Source: an uncultured Flavobacteriales bacterium
GTDB taxonomy: Bacteria; Bacteroidota; Bacteroidia; Flavobacteriales_G; Salibacteraceae
NCBI GenBank assembly: GCA_937899835.1
Contig: CALCCE010000147.1
Coordinates: 1 to 48,321 of the forward strand
DNA: 48,321 bases
Direction of reading: 5' to 3'
Notes under the pieces: model-generated
The model's input: only the letters and a program-made list of their open reading frames with translations
Told to the model about the DNA's origin: nothing
Database searches by the model: none
Position numbers and translations under genes: made by a program
Part shown: positions 16,254 to 22,395 of the stretch, piece after piece
How the letters are laid out: every line of letters begins with the position of its first letter
Numbering within the stretch: position 1 is the stretch's first letter

Positions 16254-16273
16254 AATACCTAAGGTTAGGTATT
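16254..16273. promoter_or_regulatory. perfect 9-2-9 inverted repeat, putative operator
   Basis: AATACCTAA (16254-16262), GG, TTAGGTATT (16265-16273) is a perfect inverted repeat whose right arm overlaps the -33 TTG of the promoter at 16272. The position suits a repressor site. The half-site resembles the TTAGG words of DtxR/MntR-type metal regulators but in the opposite polarity to the IdeR box, so the binder is unknown. No second copy was noticed in the window. Confidence 0.5.
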
Positions 16274-16302
16274 GGTCAAACTTAAGGTGGCGGGTACATT
16301 TG
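16272..16302 (+). promoter_or_regulatory. promoter of the DUF4856-imelysin-HTTM-TonB operon
   Basis: TTGG at 16272 and TACATTTG at 16295-16302 are separated by 20 nt after TTG, a full Bacteroidota -33/-7 promoter. The -7 box lies 39 nt before the ATG at 16342. Confidence 0.7.
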
Positions 16303-16341
16303 CGCTGCAATTTAGAATTAGTCTAAATAAGATCTAAACAA

Positions 16342-17448
16342 ATGAATTATTCTTCCTTCTTTAAGTATTCACGCTACGCTGTAGCGGCTGCCTTGGTACT
16401 AACACTTGGTGCTTGTGGCAATGACGATGATGGTGACGATGATCCCGCACCAGATAACAGTTATACAGTTCCAGAAACGTATAACTTCGAAAATGTAAAG
16501 TATACCGGTCAAACCGAGCGTTTGGACATGTTGGCTGAAATGACCACCTACATGAAAACCGGTAACACGCAGGGCACCACCTTGGATGCTCAGATTTTGA
16601 AAGACAAGTTTGCTAACGTCAATGGTCAATTTTCTACCACGTATAGCAAAAACCTGGAAAGCAAAACTTTTGCTCCTGATGTAGCCATGTTTCAGGGATT
16701 TATGGATGACATTGCTACTGCAAGTCAATCAGCCACTCCAGGATCTGACGGTACCGCCGGTGTTGTAACCAGTATCGATGGTGCTAAGTCTTACTTATTG
16801 AACGAAGACGGAGTAGAGTACACCCAGCTGATCGAAAAAGGTTTGATGGGCGCTACTTTCTATTACCAAGCTACCGCTGTTTACCTCTCTGATGATCGTA
16901 TTGGTGACGCTGTGGACAACACTACTGTTGTTCCTGGTGAAGGTACCGATATGGAGCACCACTGGGATGAAGCTTTCGGATACTTTGGAGTTGAGAAAGA
17001 TTTCCCAACCAACACTGACGTTCGTTTCTGGGGTAACTACTGCAACGGTCGCGATGGTGTTTTGGGTACCAACAGCCGTTTGATGGATGCCCTTCTCAAA
17101 GGTCGTGCTGCCATCAGCAACAACGACAAAGACGCCAAATTGGAAGCTCGTACCGAAGTAAGCAAGGTGTGGGAAGAAGTAGTAGCGGGAACCGCTATTC
17201 ACTACATTAATGGTGGTCTTGAAGATTTTAACGATGATGCGCTGCGCTGCCACCAATTGAGTGAAGCTTGGGCTTTCATCCTCTCTCTGAAATACAACTC
17301 TAACGGAACTTTGAGCGCTTCTCAAGTAGATGCTTTGCTCGCTCAATTGGGTGCTGACTTCTACGACATTACCGTAGCTGACCTGAATGCTTTGAAAGAT
17401 AGCATGGCTGCCACCTTCGGTTTGGAGTCGGTAAAAGACCAACTTTAA
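16342..17448 (+). CDS. DUF4856-family lipoprotein
   Basis: A 368-residue lipoprotein with lipobox LTLGAC (Cys25). Cys25 is followed by an acidic run GNDDDGDDD, which resembles the acidic export signals that send Bacteroidota lipoproteins to the cell surface. The body is mostly helical and matches, from memory, the DUF4856 family found beside imelysin genes. Segments such as GLMGATFYYQAT and MEHHWDEAFGYFGV carry paired His and acidic residues that could bind metal. The function is unknown. It is the first gene of a four-gene operon, 22 nt before the imelysin gene. It probably acts with imelysin as a surface component of a metal or haem uptake system (inference). Confidence 0.8.
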   Translation: MNYSSFFKYSRYAVAAALVLTLGACGNDDDGDDDPAPDNSYTVPETYNFENVKYTGQTERLDMLAEMTTYMKTGNTQGTTLDAQILKDKFANVNGQFSTTYSKNLESKTFAPDVAMFQGFMDDIATASQSATPGSDGTAGVVTSIDGAKSYLLNEDGVEYTQLIEKGLMGATFYYQATAVYLSDDRIGDAVDNTTVVPGEGTDMEHHWDEAFGYFGVEKDFPTNTDVRFWGNYCNGRDGVLGTNSRLMDALLKGRAAISNNDKDAKLEARTEVSKVWEEVVAGTAIHYINGGLEDFNDDALRCHQLSEAWAFILSLKYNSNGTLSASQVDALLAQLGADFYDITVADLNALKDSMAATFGLESVKDQL

Positions 17449-17470
17449 TTTCTACTTAACTTAAGTTGAA

Positions 17471-18607
17471 ATGCAAAGGATAGTAATGATCGGTCGAACC
17501 ATTACTCGTTATTCATGGATGCTACTGCTTACAATCGCAGTAGCATCCTGCGTTAATGACGATGATGGGGATGACCCCGAAGTTAATTTCGATCAAGGAG
17601 CCATGCTTACCACTATTGGTAATAATGTGATTGTTCCTTCCTTCGAAACCTTGAATAATGAAGCGGCAACCTTGGAAACTGAGGTAAGTGCTTTCGTAGG
17701 AAGCCCTACTGAATCGGGGCTGGCATCCGTTCGCGCCCAATACATCAAAGCCGATAAGGCATGGCAACGCTGCGCTGCCTTTAATTTCGGCCCGTCTGCT
17801 ACCTTCGCTACCCAATCTGTTCTCAATACCTGGCCTACGAATCCGACCAAGATTGAGGACAACATTACCAACGGAGGCTACAACCTTCAAACTTCTAGTA
17901 ACCTCACTGCTTCTGGTTTTCCAGCGTTGGATTACTTGCTTTACGGTTCGGCTGCTGATGAGGCGGCTATCGTTAACCGGTTTTCGCAAGAACAAGCACT
18001 GAAAGATTACCTGGTAGATGTAGTAGACATCATTGTTTCGGTTTCCGGAACTACGTATGATGGATGGTTGGCTTCTTCCAGCACCAATTACCTGGAAACC
18101 TTCGTTCAAACGACGGGTACTGATATTGGTAGTTCCATCGGTTTGATGGTCAACGAATTCAGCAAGGAAATTGAATTGGTGAAAAACGCCCGAGTAGGTA
18201 TTCCACTTGGTAAAAAATCACTCAACGTCACCCGCCCGGATCAGGTAGAAGCTTTGTATTCAGGCATGTCAGTGGAGTTCTCCGTTGAAAACATGAAAGG
18301 GCTCAAAGCGCTGTTCATGGGCTTGGGAGAAACCAGTTCTACAGCCAATGGCCTGTTCAACTACTTAGAAGCTATCAATGCCCAAGAAGGCGATGGGTTG
18401 CTGTCCAATGCCATTCGGGATCAATTCGATTTGATCGATACGCGCTTAAACGATATTCAGGGTAACCTCTTTGATGCAGTAGACAATGACTTTGCCACGG
18501 TAGATGCCGCTTACACTGAAATTCAGCGTTTGGTGGTATTGGTGAAAACCGACATGACTTCTGCCATGGGAGTTCAAATTACCTACCAGGACAACGACGG
18601 TGATTGA
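17471..18607 (+). CDS. imelysin family lipoprotein (peptidase M75-like)
   Basis: A 378-residue lipoprotein of the imelysin/IrpA fold, iron-regulated in known cases but not shown to be a peptidase. Lipobox VASC (Cys27) is followed by VNDDDGDDPE, almost the same acidic tag as in the gene before. The first bundle has the imelysin segment AWQRCAAFNFGP; the second contains ASGFPALDYLLYG, where the GxHxxE motif of classical imelysins is replaced by GFPALD, as in many Bacteroidota members. The C-terminal repeat has FNYLEAINA. A tandem helical-bundle layout is consistent with the length. It overlaps the next gene by 8 nt, so translation is probably coupled. Confidence 0.88.
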   Translation: MQRIVMIGRTITRYSWMLLLTIAVASCVNDDDGDDPEVNFDQGAMLTTIGNNVIVPSFETLNNEAATLETEVSAFVGSPTESGLASVRAQYIKADKAWQRCAAFNFGPSATFATQSVLNTWPTNPTKIEDNITNGGYNLQTSSNLTASGFPALDYLLYGSAADEAAIVNRFSQEQALKDYLVDVVDIIVSVSGTTYDGWLASSSTNYLETFVQTTGTDIGSSIGLMVNEFSKEIELVKNARVGIPLGKKSLNVTRPDQVEALYSGMSVEFSVENMKGLKALFMGLGETSSTANGLFNYLEAINAQEGDGLLSNAIRDQFDLIDTRLNDIQGNLFDAVDNDFATVDAAYTEIQRLVVLVKTDMTSAMGVQITYQDNDGD

Positions 18608-19973
18608 TCGGATTCGCCCTCTTTTCACAACACTCTCTACGGAAGATTCGGCAGCCCCTTTAGCGGGCTTCCGAATCTTTTTTGGTTTCATGATGTTGGT
18701 TAGCGTAGTGCGTTTCGCAGCCTACGGTTGGATCAACACTGTTTATATTGAACCTGATTTTCACTTTACTTACTTCGGCTTTGCTTGGGTAAAGCCCTTT
18801 GGCGAAATAGGCATGTACCTGGTTTTTATTGCCATGGCCTTAGCGGCAATCTGCATCATGCTGGGTTTTCTTTACCGCCTGTCCACCGTGGCTTTCTTCT
18901 TGCTTTTTACTTACGTAGAACTGCTCGATAAAACCACTTATCTCAACCATTACTACTTCGTTAGCCTGGTAGCCTTCATCCTTATCTGGTTGCCGGCCAA
19001 CCGCGCCTGGTCCATAGACGCCTGGCGCAGCCCCAAACGCTTTCAGGCCACGGTTCCCCGTTGGACCATTCGTATTCTTCAGCTGCAATTGGCCATTGTG
19101 TACGTTTATGCAGGCATCGCCAAGATCAATCCTGATTGGATGTTAGAGGCCATGCCCTTGAGGATGTGGTTGCCGGCCCACTCCGATTTGCCCCTTATCG
19201 GCTCATACTTTACCAAAACCTGGGTAGCCTACCTCTTCAGTTGGTTTGGCATGGTCTACGATCTTACCATTCCTTTCTTTCTGCTTTACCGCCCTACTCG
19301 GCTCTGGGCTTATGCAGCGGTAGTCGTTTTCCACGTGCTCACTTGGGTATTGTTTCCGATTGGCATGTTTCCGTTCATCATGATCGGAGCCACTCTTATT
19401 TTCTTTTCTCCTCAATGGCACATGCGCTGGCTCAACCGCCTTTGGCCTGCAATATGGAAACCCGAACCCAGCATTCAACCCACTACGCGATTTCGCATGC
19501 CAACGCTTGGCCTTTATGGAATTGGGCTATTCTTAGTTTTCCAACTTTTATTTCCTTTTCGATACCTCGCTTATCCAGGAGAACTTTTTTGGACCGAAGA
19601 AGGTTATCGTTTCAGCTGGCGTGTCATGTTGATTGAAAAGGCAGGCTACGTCACCTTTAAGGTGAAAGATCCTGCAACCGGCCGGGAAGGCGAAGTATGG
19701 CCTTCCGATTACCTCACCAAGTTCCAGGAAAAGCAAATGAGTACTCAGCCAGATATGATTTTGGAGTTCGCCCATTTCATTGCTGCGGAATACCAGGAGC
19801 TGGGCATTGAATCCCCTGAAGTTCGGGCAGAAGCCTACGTGACCCTCAATGGCCATCGGAGCAGATTGCTGATCGATCCTGAAGTGGATTTAGTCAAGGA
19901 GAAAGACAGTTTTGCTCCCAAGACCTGGATACTTCCATTTGAAAAATCAAATGCTTTTGCAAACTCTCAATAA
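18600..19973 (+). CDS. HTTM domain / vitamin K-dependent gamma-carboxylase-like membrane protein
   Basis: A 457-residue polytopic protein starting at GTG 18600 inside the end of the imelysin gene. The HTTM domain (roughly residues 15-290) has several TM helices and family motifs: APLAGFRIFFGFMML, TYVELLDKTTYLNHYYF, YVYAGIAKINPDWM with MPLRMWLPAHS, and YDLTIPFFLLYR. The C-terminal soluble part (~330-457) contains WRVMLIEKAG and VTFKVKDPATGREGEV, like the region after the TM part of eukaryotic gamma-glutamyl carboxylase. In animals the enzyme carboxylates Glu using vitamin K hydroquinone; bacterial substrates are mostly undefined. Its place between an imelysin lipoprotein and a TonB receptor suggests processing of operon proteins or a metal-related role (inference). 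Confidence 0.85.
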   Translation: MIDRIRPLFTTLSTEDSAAPLAGFRIFFGFMMLVSVVRFAAYGWINTVYIEPDFHFTYFGFAWVKPFGEIGMYLVFIAMALAAICIMLGFLYRLSTVAFFLLFTYVELLDKTTYLNHYYFVSLVAFILIWLPANRAWSIDAWRSPKRFQATVPRWTIRILQLQLAIVYVYAGIAKINPDWMLEAMPLRMWLPAHSDLPLIGSYFTKTWVAYLFSWFGMVYDLTIPFFLLYRPTRLWAYAAVVVFHVLTWVLFPIGMFPFIMIGATLIFFSPQWHMRWLNRLWPAIWKPEPSIQPTTRFRMPTLGLYGIGLFLVFQLLFPFRYLAYPGELFWTEEGYRFSWRVMLIEKAGYVTFKVKDPATGREGEVWPSDYLTKFQEKQMSTQPDMILEFAHFIAAEYQELGIESPEVRAEAYVTLNGHRSRLLIDPEVDLVKEKDSFAPKTWILPFEKSNAFANSQ

Positions 19974-22395
19974 ATACCTGTTTTTACTCGGGTTGCTCCT
20001 GCTACCCAGTGTTTTGTTGGCCGCTTCGCTTACTGGCGTGGTGAAAGACGGCGAAACGGGCGAAAAGCTTTTTGGTGCTGAAGTGCTGTTGCAAAACACC
20101 TTTTTCAAAGCGACTACCGACGAGAATGGTCGTTTTGTTTTCAAAGGTGTACCGGAAGGAAAACACGTACTCCAGGTGTATCTTTTTGGCTTTGCGGCCT
20201 ACCAGCAGGAAGTGATCATGACCAATGAAGATCAGACGATTGAAACGGTGTTGAACCCCCTACAGCAGTCGCTGGACGAAGTGGTTGTAGAAGCAGAGAA
20301 AGACAATTCTTTTGGCATTACCCGCTTGCGTGCCATTGAAGGAACTGCCATTTATGCCTCCAAGAAAAACGAGGTGGTAGTACTTGAAGACCTCAACGCT
20401 AACCTGGCGCAAAATAACGGCCGTCAGGTCTATGCCCGTGTTGCTGGCCTAAACATTTGGGAGAGCGATCCCGGTGGACTGCAACTGGGGGTAGGAGGCC
20501 GTGGTTTGAGTCCCAACCGCACCTCAAATTTCAATACCCGCCAAAACGGGTACGACATTAGTGCCGATCCTTTGGGCTATCCCGAAAGCTATTACACCCC
20601 GCCTACTGAAGCGGTGAGACGTATTGAAGTGGTGCGTGGTGCGGCTTCGCTCCAGTATGGACCTCAGTTTGGGGGCATGATCAACTTTTCGCTCAAAGAG
20701 GGGCCGCGAGACAAGCCCATTGAAGTGGTTACCCGGCAAACCGTGGGTAGCTTTGGTTTCTTCAACTCCTTCAACAGTGTTGGCGGAACCCACGGAAAAA
20801 TCAATTACTACGGCTACCTGCAATACAAACAAGGAGACGGCTGGCGGCCCAACTCCAATTTTGAATCTACCTCCGGGTATGGCGCTTTGCGCTATAAAGC
20901 TAATAAGCGCATGGAGCTGGTGTTCGAGTTCACGCACCTCAACTACCTGGCCAAGCAACCCGGCGGGCTCACCGATGCTCAATTTGAGCGCGATGCCCAA
21001 CAATCGAACCGGGAGCGCAATTGGTTTGCAATTGATTGGAACATTGCCTCGGCCACCGTCAATTACAACCTCACCGAAAAAACCAGGATCAACAGCCGCT
21101 TCTTTGGCCTTTCAGCCAAACGGGAAGCTTTGGGCAATTTGGACCGTATCGACCGTGCCGACGATCCTACCGCTAACCGCGATTTGATTTACGGTGACTT
21201 CAACAACTTCGGCAACGAAACCCGATTCATCCATCAATACCGCATCAAAGGCCTTAATGCCGCACTGCTCACCGGAGTGCGCTATTTTCAGGGACAAACG
21301 GTGAGCCAGCAAGGGGAAGCCGACAATGGGAGCAATGCATCTTTCAACTTCATCAATCCCGATGGATGGCTGCAATCGGATTACGAATTCCCGAGCCGCA
21401 ACATTGCTTTTTTCGCCGAGCATTTATTTACCCTCGCCCCGCGTTGGACCCTTACGCCAGGTTTCCGTTTCGAGTACCTCTACACCGAAGCCAATGGCTA
21501 CTACCGGCAAACCAACCTCCATCCGCTTACCGGGGAAATTCTGCTGGATGTGTTGAATGAAGAAACCAATTCGCGCACCCGTAGCTTCTTCTTAGGTGGT
21601 TTGGGTACCAGCTACCGGCCCTTGGAAAGTGTAGAAGTGTATGGCAATTTTTCACAAAATTATCGGCCGATCAACTTCAACGATATTCGAATCATCAACC
21701 CCAACCAGGTTGTAGATCCCAACATTAAAGATGAGCGGGGTTTTAGTTTAGACCTTGGTTTCCGGGGCAACGTGAAAAGGGCTTTGAACTTTGATGTGAG
21801 CTTCTTTATGCTGGCCTACAAAGACCGTATTGGTACTTTCCTCACCACGGTGCCCGATCCGGCCCTCATCGAAAGAGTGGTGCGGTTGCGCACCAACATT
21901 GCCAACTCGCGTTCGATAGGCGTAGAGGCTTTTGGAGAGTTAGACCTGTGGCGGGTGGTGCGTGGCGATTCGGCCAAGAGCTCGCTGGCATTGTTTGTGA
22001 ATGTTTCGCATGTGAATGCCCGGTATATCTCTTCCGACGAAGCGGCCTTTGATGGCCGAAAAGTTGAATTGGTTCCGGAATACACCACCCGAAGTGGACT
22101 TACTTTCCGGCGAAAAAATTGGAGCCTTAGCTACCAGTTTTCCTGGATCGCAGAGCAATTCTCCGATGCGACCAACGCCGAGTTCTATCCTACAGCAGTA
22201 GCAGGCATCATTCCGGCCTACCATGTTTCTGATTTGAGTGGCTTCTACCGTTGGAAACGTTTCCGTGTGGAAGCAGGCATCAACAACCTGACCGACGAGC
22301 GCTATTTCACCCGACGAGCGACCGGATATCCTGGTCCGGGTATTCTCCCGTCAGAAGCGCGCAGCTTTTACACCACGCTTCAAATTACGATCTAA
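19951..22395 (+). CDS. TonB-dependent receptor with carboxypeptidase-like N-terminal domain
   Basis: An 814-residue outer membrane active transporter from ATG 19951. That start overlaps the end of the HTTM gene by 23 nt and gives the signal peptide LFLLGLLLLPSVLLA. Next comes a CarboxypepD_reg-like beta-sandwich (LTGVVKDGETGEKLFGAEV), then a plug domain with VEVVRGAASLQYGPQFGGMI-like features (IEVVRGAASLQYGPQFGG), then the 22-strand barrel ending in RSFYTTLQITI with the usual aromatic-rich last strand. Parts such as NFNDIRIINPNQVVDPN and GFSLDLGFRG match FecA/Fe-siderophore-type receptors. The substrate is unknown; imelysin context suggests iron or another metal. No SusD partner follows. Its 3' end overlaps the convergent oxidoreductase gene by 11 nt. 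Confidence 0.9.
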   Translation: MLLQTLNKYLFLLGLLLLPSVLLAASLTGVVKDGETGEKLFGAEVLLQNTFFKATTDENGRFVFKGVPEGKHVLQVYLFGFAAYQQEVIMTNEDQTIETVLNPLQQSLDEVVVEAEKDNSFGITRLRAIEGTAIYASKKNEVVVLEDLNANLAQNNGRQVYARVAGLNIWESDPGGLQLGVGGRGLSPNRTSNFNTRQNGYDISADPLGYPESYYTPPTEAVRRIEVVRGAASLQYGPQFGGMINFSLKEGPRDKPIEVVTRQTVGSFGFFNSFNSVGGTHGKINYYGYLQYKQGDGWRPNSNFESTSGYGALRYKANKRMELVFEFTHLNYLAKQPGGLTDAQFERDAQQSNRERNWFAIDWNIASATVNYNLTEKTRINSRFFGLSAKREALGNLDRIDRADDPTANRDLIYGDFNNFGNETRFIHQYRIKGLNAALLTGVRYFQGQTVSQQGEADNGSNASFNFINPDGWLQSDYEFPSRNIAFFAEHLFTLAPRWTLTPGFRFEYLYTEANGYYRQTNLHPLTGEILLDVLNEETNSRTRSFFLGGLGTSYRPLESVEVYGNFSQNYRPINFNDIRIINPNQVVDPNIKDERGFSLDLGFRGNVKRALNFDVSFFMLAYKDRIGTFLTTVPDPALIERVVRLRTNIANSRSIGVEAFGELDLWRVVRGDSAKSSLALFVNVSHVNARYISSDEAAFDGRKVELVPEYTTRSGLTFRRKNWSLSYQFSWIAEQFSDATNAEFYPTAVAGIIPAYHVSDLSGFYRWKRFRVEAGINNLTDERYFTRRATGYPGPGILPSEARSFYTTLQITI

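Follow-up and report, generated by a model that had tools for sequence, protein, structure and literature searches.

What does a homologue of the vitamin K-dependent gamma-carboxylase (VKGC) do in a bacterial operon whose other genes code for two lipoproteins and a TonB-dependent receptor (TBDR)? The question is raised by a four-gene locus of an uncultured Flavobacteriales bacterium, located on the 48,321-nucleotide stretch of contig CALCCE010000147.1 that was analysed here (hereafter, the window). A sequence-only reading had taken this locus for a metal or metallophore uptake system in which the membrane protein of the HTTM family either modifies a partner, perhaps by carboxylating Glu/Asp-rich regions of the lipoproteins, or moves a lipid-like cofactor. 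Our analysis leads us to propose that the unit is an iron-acquisition operon and that its VKGC-type enzyme performs menaquinol-driven Glu-carboxylation chemistry on a partner, a reading to which we assign a probability of roughly 0.5 and in which we infer the chemistry. The features of the locus are as follows.

16342..17448, plus strand: gene for a DUF4856 lipoprotein (Pfam PF16148, 130.6 bits, family cut-off 22.3)
17471..18607, plus strand: gene for an imelysin (M75) lipoprotein (Pfam PF09375, 119.7 bits, domain cut-off 23.5)
18600..19973, plus strand: gene, with a GTG start, for a membrane protein with HTTM and VKGC lumenal domains, a gamma-glutamyl carboxylase homologue (Pfam, profile match to human GGCX, residues and model)
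19951..22395, plus strand: gene for a TBDR with a CarboxypepD_reg-like N-terminal domain (Pfam), with siderophore/FecA-type similarity below the family cut-offs
16272..16302, plus strand: probable promoter, TTGG at 16272-16275 and TACATTTG at 16295-16302 (from sequence)
16310..16328, plus strand: 19-bp Fur-type operator ATTTAGAATTAGTCTAAAT, 7 nt past the -7 element and 13 nt ahead of the first ATG

The open reading frames (ORFs) bear out exactly the gene number, order, strand and intergenic distances (+22, -8 and -23 nt) first read from the sequence. The receptor start was taken as the ATG at 19951; the ORF list also offers a TTG at 19912, which would lengthen the protein. One promoter-like site, a probable promoter, lies ahead of the four genes, and its TACATTTG element fits TAnnTTTG, which we take to be the -7 element of Bacteroidota.

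To assess conservation we surveyed 198 Bacteroidota genomes, evenly drawn from the phylum and including that of the window (the source genome). Pfam places the VKGC lumenal domain in 46 genomes, about a quarter, and DUF4856 in 33, and in 31 of these 33 a VKGC domain lies at most about 3.3 kb away on the same strand, the exceptions being G109 and G128. DUF4856 stands there without VKGC, alone in 11 kb in G109 (L086) and beside a more distant TonB receptor in G128 (L094). An operon-type unit is present in 40 of the 46 VKGC genomes (40/198 overall) and is complete, reading DUF4856-imelysin-VKGC-TBDR, in 38; one of the two incomplete units sits on a 3.7-kb contig, and the remaining six VKGC genomes carry solo VKGC genes only. 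Loci were mapped with profiles built in this analysis after retrieval. The 80 named loci are the best 80 of 571 relatives by similarity, a sample biased towards this operon type, and 68 of them hold the complete run (64 exactly, two with an extra imelysin and two preceded by an extra DUF4856). The remaining 12, some of which are cut by contig ends, comprise imelysin-VKGC-TBDR (six), VKGC-TBDR (two), DUF4856-VKGC (two), imelysin-VKGC (one) and DUF4856-imelysin-TBDR-VKGC (one). Record titles among the 80 name Flavobacterium, Pontibacter, Hymenobacter, Fodinibius, Rhodothermaceae and others. In Roseivirga (L149, L196), DUF4856-VKGC pairs occur with neither imelysin nor receptor adjoining.

Complete four-gene order was found in 104 of 133 distinct loci. 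Distinct counts merge L147 with L082, L191 with L084 and L153 with L097, giving 117 operon enzymes, 104 complete operons and 94 operons with a Fur-type box (120, 106 and 96 before merging); the three double loci are still included in the gap medians, divergence correlations, acidic-residue means and counts, the Fur scan of other ORFs and the tree. The 102 exactly complete units have median gaps of 61, 3 and -23 nt (doubles included). The pairwise divergence of the four proteins is correlated (r 0.87-0.91, doubles included), and mean pairwise identity is highest for VKGC at 0.53, followed by the receptor at 0.48, imelysin at 0.37 and DUF4856 at 0.35 (doubles included). Conservation of the unit in 40 of 198 genomes, 38 of them complete, excludes a chance arrangement. 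Thus, the four-gene unit is a real, conserved system, and co-occurrence of the families in this order, the check attached to the sequence-only reading, came out in its favor.

That reading contained neither the Fur-type box at 16310-16328 nor the published Riemerella expression data, both of which bear on the metal. The box ATTTAGAATTAGTCTAAAT agrees with the predicted Riemerella Fur box at 18 of 19 positions. In our scan, 14 arm positions were scored, over-extended starts were allowed for and the search reached 60 nt into the ORF. At least 12 of the 14 arm positions are matched upstream of DUF4856 in 94 of the 104 distinct complete operons, and at least 13 in 72; among shuffled regions, 23 of 2080 reach 12 and none reaches 13, while eight of 308 other ORFs in the operon loci (2.6%, doubles included) reach 12. 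Solo VKGC genes served as further controls, and 12 of 13 lack a Fur-type box (at most 9/14); the remaining one, L105, falls inside the operon clade and scores 12. Seven imelysin-VKGC-TBDR loci lacking DUF4856 have best upstream scores of 11, 12, 11, 12, 11, 14 and 14, where both values of 14 come from a single locus retrieved twice, and because of this range of 11-14 the box is, by sequence score, weaker in these units. Within the source genome, the pattern with at most two mismatches gives 27 strand-wise matches at 15 distinct sites (counted by hand) and the reversed pattern gives none. Genes behind such sites include those for Fe-S cluster biosynthesis (L200), an ABC-type solute-binding protein (L202) and glutamyl-tRNA reductase (L207); another site lies ahead of a gene for a HmuY-like type IX secretion system (T9SS) protein (L205), just below the Pfam cut-off, and further sites precede genes that have no evident iron link, such as those for an AraC regulator and an FG-GAP protein.

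The Riemerella anatipestifer genes RAYM_09779-09794, at neighboring tags, are named as a receptor, vitamin K-dependent gamma-carboxylase, imelysin and hypothetical protein, and are probably the same operon, matched by gene names and tag order alone (PMC5609570). In the tables of that paper their low/normal iron ratios are 2.11, 2.64, 3.07 and 2.41, and all four are counted among the 17 Fur-regulated genes of Table 4. The Fur-type boxes together with the low-iron rise of the matching Riemerella genes make iron very probably the metal, which supports and narrows the metal role first proposed, and a function in iron acquisition is to us highly probable.

The data also support the relationship to gamma-carboxylase that had been read from the sequence. 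The HTTM protein matches PF05090 (HTTM) with 291 bits and PF22777 (VKGC_lumenal_dom) with 193.6 bits, each against a cut-off of 27.7; a profile built from 32 VKGC proteins of the operon type hits human GGCX residues 51-505 with an E value of 1e-68; and a template-free model (pLDDT 88.7) fits human GGCX (9wf3_A) with a TM score of 0.84 and a root mean square deviation (rmsd) of 3.8. By sequence and model, it is a true VKGC homologue. Residues N116, H117 and K175 of the window enzyme correspond to human N159, H160 and K218. In human numbering, K218, H160, N159, A214, W223, F286, F299 and M402 are identical in all 117 distinct operon enzymes, F294 and G259 are kept in 116 and V210 in 114, and position 395 is Tyr in 91 and Phe in 26; L118, a 304-residue match, was left out of these counts. 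According to the GGCX study, K218 acts as the base in quinol deprotonation, and the Glu side-chain pocket is formed by N159, H160 and Y395, with H160 tied to Glu carboxylation (PMC12589487). Over the 19 quinone-tunnel and Glu-pocket residues named in that study the mean identity is 0.63, which none of 20000 random column sets reaches; an earlier set of 12 residues gave 0.977, a value biased by residue choice, and all 19 named residues are the fair test. In a tree rooted on human GGCX, the operon enzymes group with L105 in a single clade (support 0.91, doubles included).

A number of observations weigh against the proposed reading. In the enzyme, seven of the 19 pocket residues (N158, V254, V255, G258, N290, M401 and R436) are kept in fewer than one fifth of the sequences, K217 is replaced by Ala or Ser in 117/117, and Y425 stays Tyr in only 38 of the 117. 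The region past human residue 505 is missing, the window protein having 457 residues against 758 in the human chain, and M401 is replaced by Val and the C99-C450 cysteine pair is absent. No Glu-rich substrate segment was found, nor any biochemical test. Some units lack DUF4856, imelysin or the receptor. On the regulatory side, the Riemerella genes still respond to iron in the fur mutant (2.70 to 3.07), the mutant with iron reaches only 1.36 to 1.93 relative to wild type, and none of the four genes appears in that paper's Fur-box table (PMC5609570); the first two of these results indicate that another control exists in Riemerella. VKOR is not associated with the operon (8/40 operon genomes versus 34/158 others, Fisher p = 1.0), and its co-occurrence was rejected as backing for a vitamin K cycle. 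In animals, VKOR serves the carboxylase by recycling vitamin K epoxide; Bacteroidota make menaquinone, so its missing association leaves room for quinol chemistry.

Judged by the paper's residue numbers, the region past residue 505 would hold much of the second propeptide-binding lobe and the Arch (PMC12589487), and because the full propeptide-binding domain and Arch are absent we do not file the window enzyme as GGCX proper. It is like human GGCX in fold, K218, H160, N159 and most of the quinone-ring pocket, and differs from it in the region past 505, K217, M401, the C99-C450 pair and the lack of an association with VKOR. Since the catalytic residues are conserved while K217, M401, R436, N158, C99-C450 and the region past 505 are lost, the enzyme seems to have retained catalysis but not propeptide recognition. 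The invariant catalytic residues make carboxylase chemistry more likely, and we think it fairly probable that the enzyme retains menaquinol- or quinol-driven carboxylase-type chemistry.

The products of the first two genes are lipoproteins, as had been read, with lipobox cysteines at C25 in the DUF4856 protein and C27 in the imelysin. Behind the lipid Cys stand the acidic stretches GNDDDGDDD (DUF4856) and VNDDDGDD (imelysin). Across the operons, the 12 residues after the Cys hold on average 2.6 Asp and 1.0 Glu in DUF4856 and 2.2 Asp and 0.9 Glu in imelysin, and at least three acidic residues, mostly Asp, are found in 88/104 and 73/101 sequences, respectively (doubles included); the denominators are the sequences with a recognized lipobox, each out of 106. 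Because these Asp-rich stretches resemble the lipoprotein surface-export signals SDDDD and SDDFE (PMC5080379), both proteins are probably located at the cell surface. As Gla (gamma-carboxyglutamate) substrates the Asp/Glu-rich stretches were rejected as a first choice, being Asp-driven, placed directly after the lipid Cys and export-signal-like. The sequence-only reading probably picked the wrong residues for the modification.

The DUF4856 model is helical (pLDDT 90.9). Y233 and E308 are invariant in 104/104 distinct sequences, and K166 (103), D209 (100), H304 (97) and H206 (92) nearly so. A weak match of 23.8 bits, against a cut-off of 250, links DUF4856 to NF038033 (FEA1_rel_lipo), a family related to FEA1, the iron-assimilating periplasmic protein of algae; 15 of the 16 matches to this profile across the 198 genomes fall at DUF4856 genes and none exceeds the cut-off, so homology to FEA1 is not established. 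Foldseek returned no chain at an E value of 0.001 or better for the model, and the best VIA-align fit, to alpha-catenin (Z 7.4, 176 residues, rmsd 4.2), may reflect only a common helical arrangement. Neither imelysin nor FEA1 is among the 50 Foldseek or 50 VIA-align matches listed, which excludes nothing, and a DUF4856 profile search of solved structures gave chance-level matches only. The operon imelysin family profile, in contrast, matches the solved imelysins 3n8u, 3pf0 and 4ecg. The GxHxxE sequence, which we take to be the imelysin motif, is replaced in the window protein by G149-F-P-A-L-D-Y; among 104 distinct imelysins, 89 have Pro at the motif's His position and 91 have D154. In the C-terminal DNDGD sequence, D376 and D378 are kept in 104/104.

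The receptor contains plug (37.5 bits) and barrel (122.9 bits) domains, which place it among the TBDRs, and a CarboxypepD_reg domain. Its score against NCBIfam TIGR01783, 120.4 bits, lies below the cut-off of 223.5, and that against the FecA ferric dicitrate receptor family NF041676, 71.8 bits, far below 1100; a phmmer search of the PDB gave no match at 1e-8 or better. By Pfam, the operon is preceded by a SpoU-type RNA methyltransferase gene and followed by a convergent gene for a FAD-dependent protein, the end of which overlaps the receptor gene by 11 nt (22385-22395).

Among known systems, EfeUOB/FTR1 iron uptake places an M75-type protein beside a redox protein; it differs in that the ORFs and Pfam matches of our operon include neither an FTR1 permease nor a DyP peroxidase. 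The LruB-type operon of Leptospira, with the order imelysin, di-haem oxidoreductase (DHOR), imelysin, likewise sets imelysins beside a redox protein and responds with induction both to iron limitation and to a host model, but has DHOR in place of the VKGC enzyme, with no mention of DUF4856. In four Flavobacterium loci (L131, L134, L169 and L185), an imelysin gene diverges from an imelysin-VKGC-TBDR unit without DUF4856, which places two iron-type systems at one intergenic region; DHOR lies behind the divergent imelysin in L131 and L185, the two that were scanned. Another contig of the source genome (G000:C86; L214, L215) carries an imelysin, a DHOR-like protein (named by eye) and a second imelysin, a set that resembles the LruB operon; no Fur-type box was found just upstream of it (at most 9/14).

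According to our model, as iron falls Fur would leave the box and the operon would be transcribed. DUF4856 and imelysin would be exported as lipoproteins that their acidic signals probably direct to the cell surface, and would capture iron or a ferric chelate for the TBDR. The VKGC-type enzyme would lie in the inner membrane with its active site, by homology, towards the periplasm, where it would bind menaquinol, use O2 and CO2, and carboxylate a glutamate (or similar carboxylate) on an operon partner as that partner crosses the periplasm. The product would be Gla, a malonate-like ligand for a hard metal ion, and imelysin, DUF4856 and the receptor are the candidate targets. That the target is a protein of the same operon is conceivable, at somewhat less than even odds. 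More tentative still is the full proposal that Bacteroidota make Gla, with an iron-starvation-induced, menaquinol-driven periplasmic carboxylase building Gla sites into surface iron-capture lipoproteins or the receptor.

The substrate of the same chemistry could instead be a small molecule, such as a ferric chelator of the carboxylate type taken up via the receptor, so that no operon protein would carry Gla. Three observations fit this idea: the enzyme ends near human residue 505 with much of the propeptide clamp gone, two residues by which GGCX holds the peptide backbone, N158 and R436, are replaced in 117/117, and no one partner always adjoins the enzyme. We nonetheless regard it as unlikely, because on the Glu side neither N159 nor H160 varies and position 395 is occupied by Tyr or Phe, and the conserved linkage with two lipoproteins points to protein partners. 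About equally doubtful is a menaquinol-dependent redox factor without carboxylation, which would supply electrons or alter the quinol and so free ferric iron from imelysin or a chelate. The parallel, iron-regulated imelysin-DHOR system in Leptospira and the DHOR-imelysin pairs divergent beside the scanned Flavobacterium VKGC units would suit such a factor, yet H160, required for carboxylation in GGCX (PMC12589487), is invariant, and GGCX epoxidation does not run without Glu according to a review (PMC9146348).

Two further alternatives appear highly improbable. A polytopic membrane protein inside an uptake operon could be a transporter or permease for imported iron or a lipid-like cofactor, but it has an enzyme's fold and active site, which also disfavors the earlier suggestion that the HTTM protein moves such a cofactor, and the source genome has a gene for an ABC-type solute-binding protein with a Fur-type box. 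Equally, the locus could be an ordinary TonB uptake unit in which the VKGC homologue is an inactive remnant. To our knowledge, bacterial VKGC activity has hardly been tested, and a Leptospira carboxylase has reportedly lost both K218 and carboxylation. Against a remnant, conservation is higher in VKGC than in the other three proteins (0.53 versus 0.35 to 0.48), and all 117 distinct sequences carry K218 and H160.

Solo VKGC genes offer a view of the enzyme outside the operon. K218 and H160 are kept in 13/13 solo enzymes, and the Glu-pocket position Y395 is His in 12 of the 13. The source genome has a second full-length VKGC gene (G000:C188; L092:5231-6586) that stands alone and outside the operon clade, lacks a Fur-type box (best 8/14) and keeps K218 and H160. 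The members of a separate solo clade from seven genomes (L098, L100, L101, L114, L115, L116 and L117) each immediately follow a gene resembling riboflavin kinase/FAD synthetase (checked by Pfam for L098 alone), and an apparent seryl-tRNA synthetase gene then follows in five of the seven (by eye). No Gla-like substrate was noticed beside solo VKGC genes in a look by eye.

The sequence-only reading had called the system undescribed. In the literature covered, with most subscription journals outside the scope, gamma-carboxylase appears together with imelysin, and together with TonB-dependent and Fur, only in the Riemerella paper (PMC5609570); we found nothing on DUF4856, nothing joining HTTM with iron and operon, and no pairing of HTTM with imelysin or a TonB-dependent receptor. 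In that paper, as far as its tables show, the four genes are rows of a Fur/iron table, with no Fur box listed and outside the targets of the electrophoretic mobility shift assays. Within this coverage, the four genes are not treated as a system in print, and "undescribed" is almost, though not entirely, correct for this TonB-linked iron unit containing a VKGC enzyme.

We know of no substrate for the bacterial VKGC relatives, although these are present in 46 of 198 Bacteroidota genomes. For one VKGC subfamily, whose catalytic residues are invariant, a probable condition (low iron), a Fur-type site and three candidate partners from the same operon can now be named, by which the job of the bacterial enzyme becomes testable. 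If Gla is indeed made in Bacteroidota, its maker would be a homologue of the animal clotting-factor enzyme, and this enzyme family would serve iron acquisition in bacteria, perhaps as an ancestral function.

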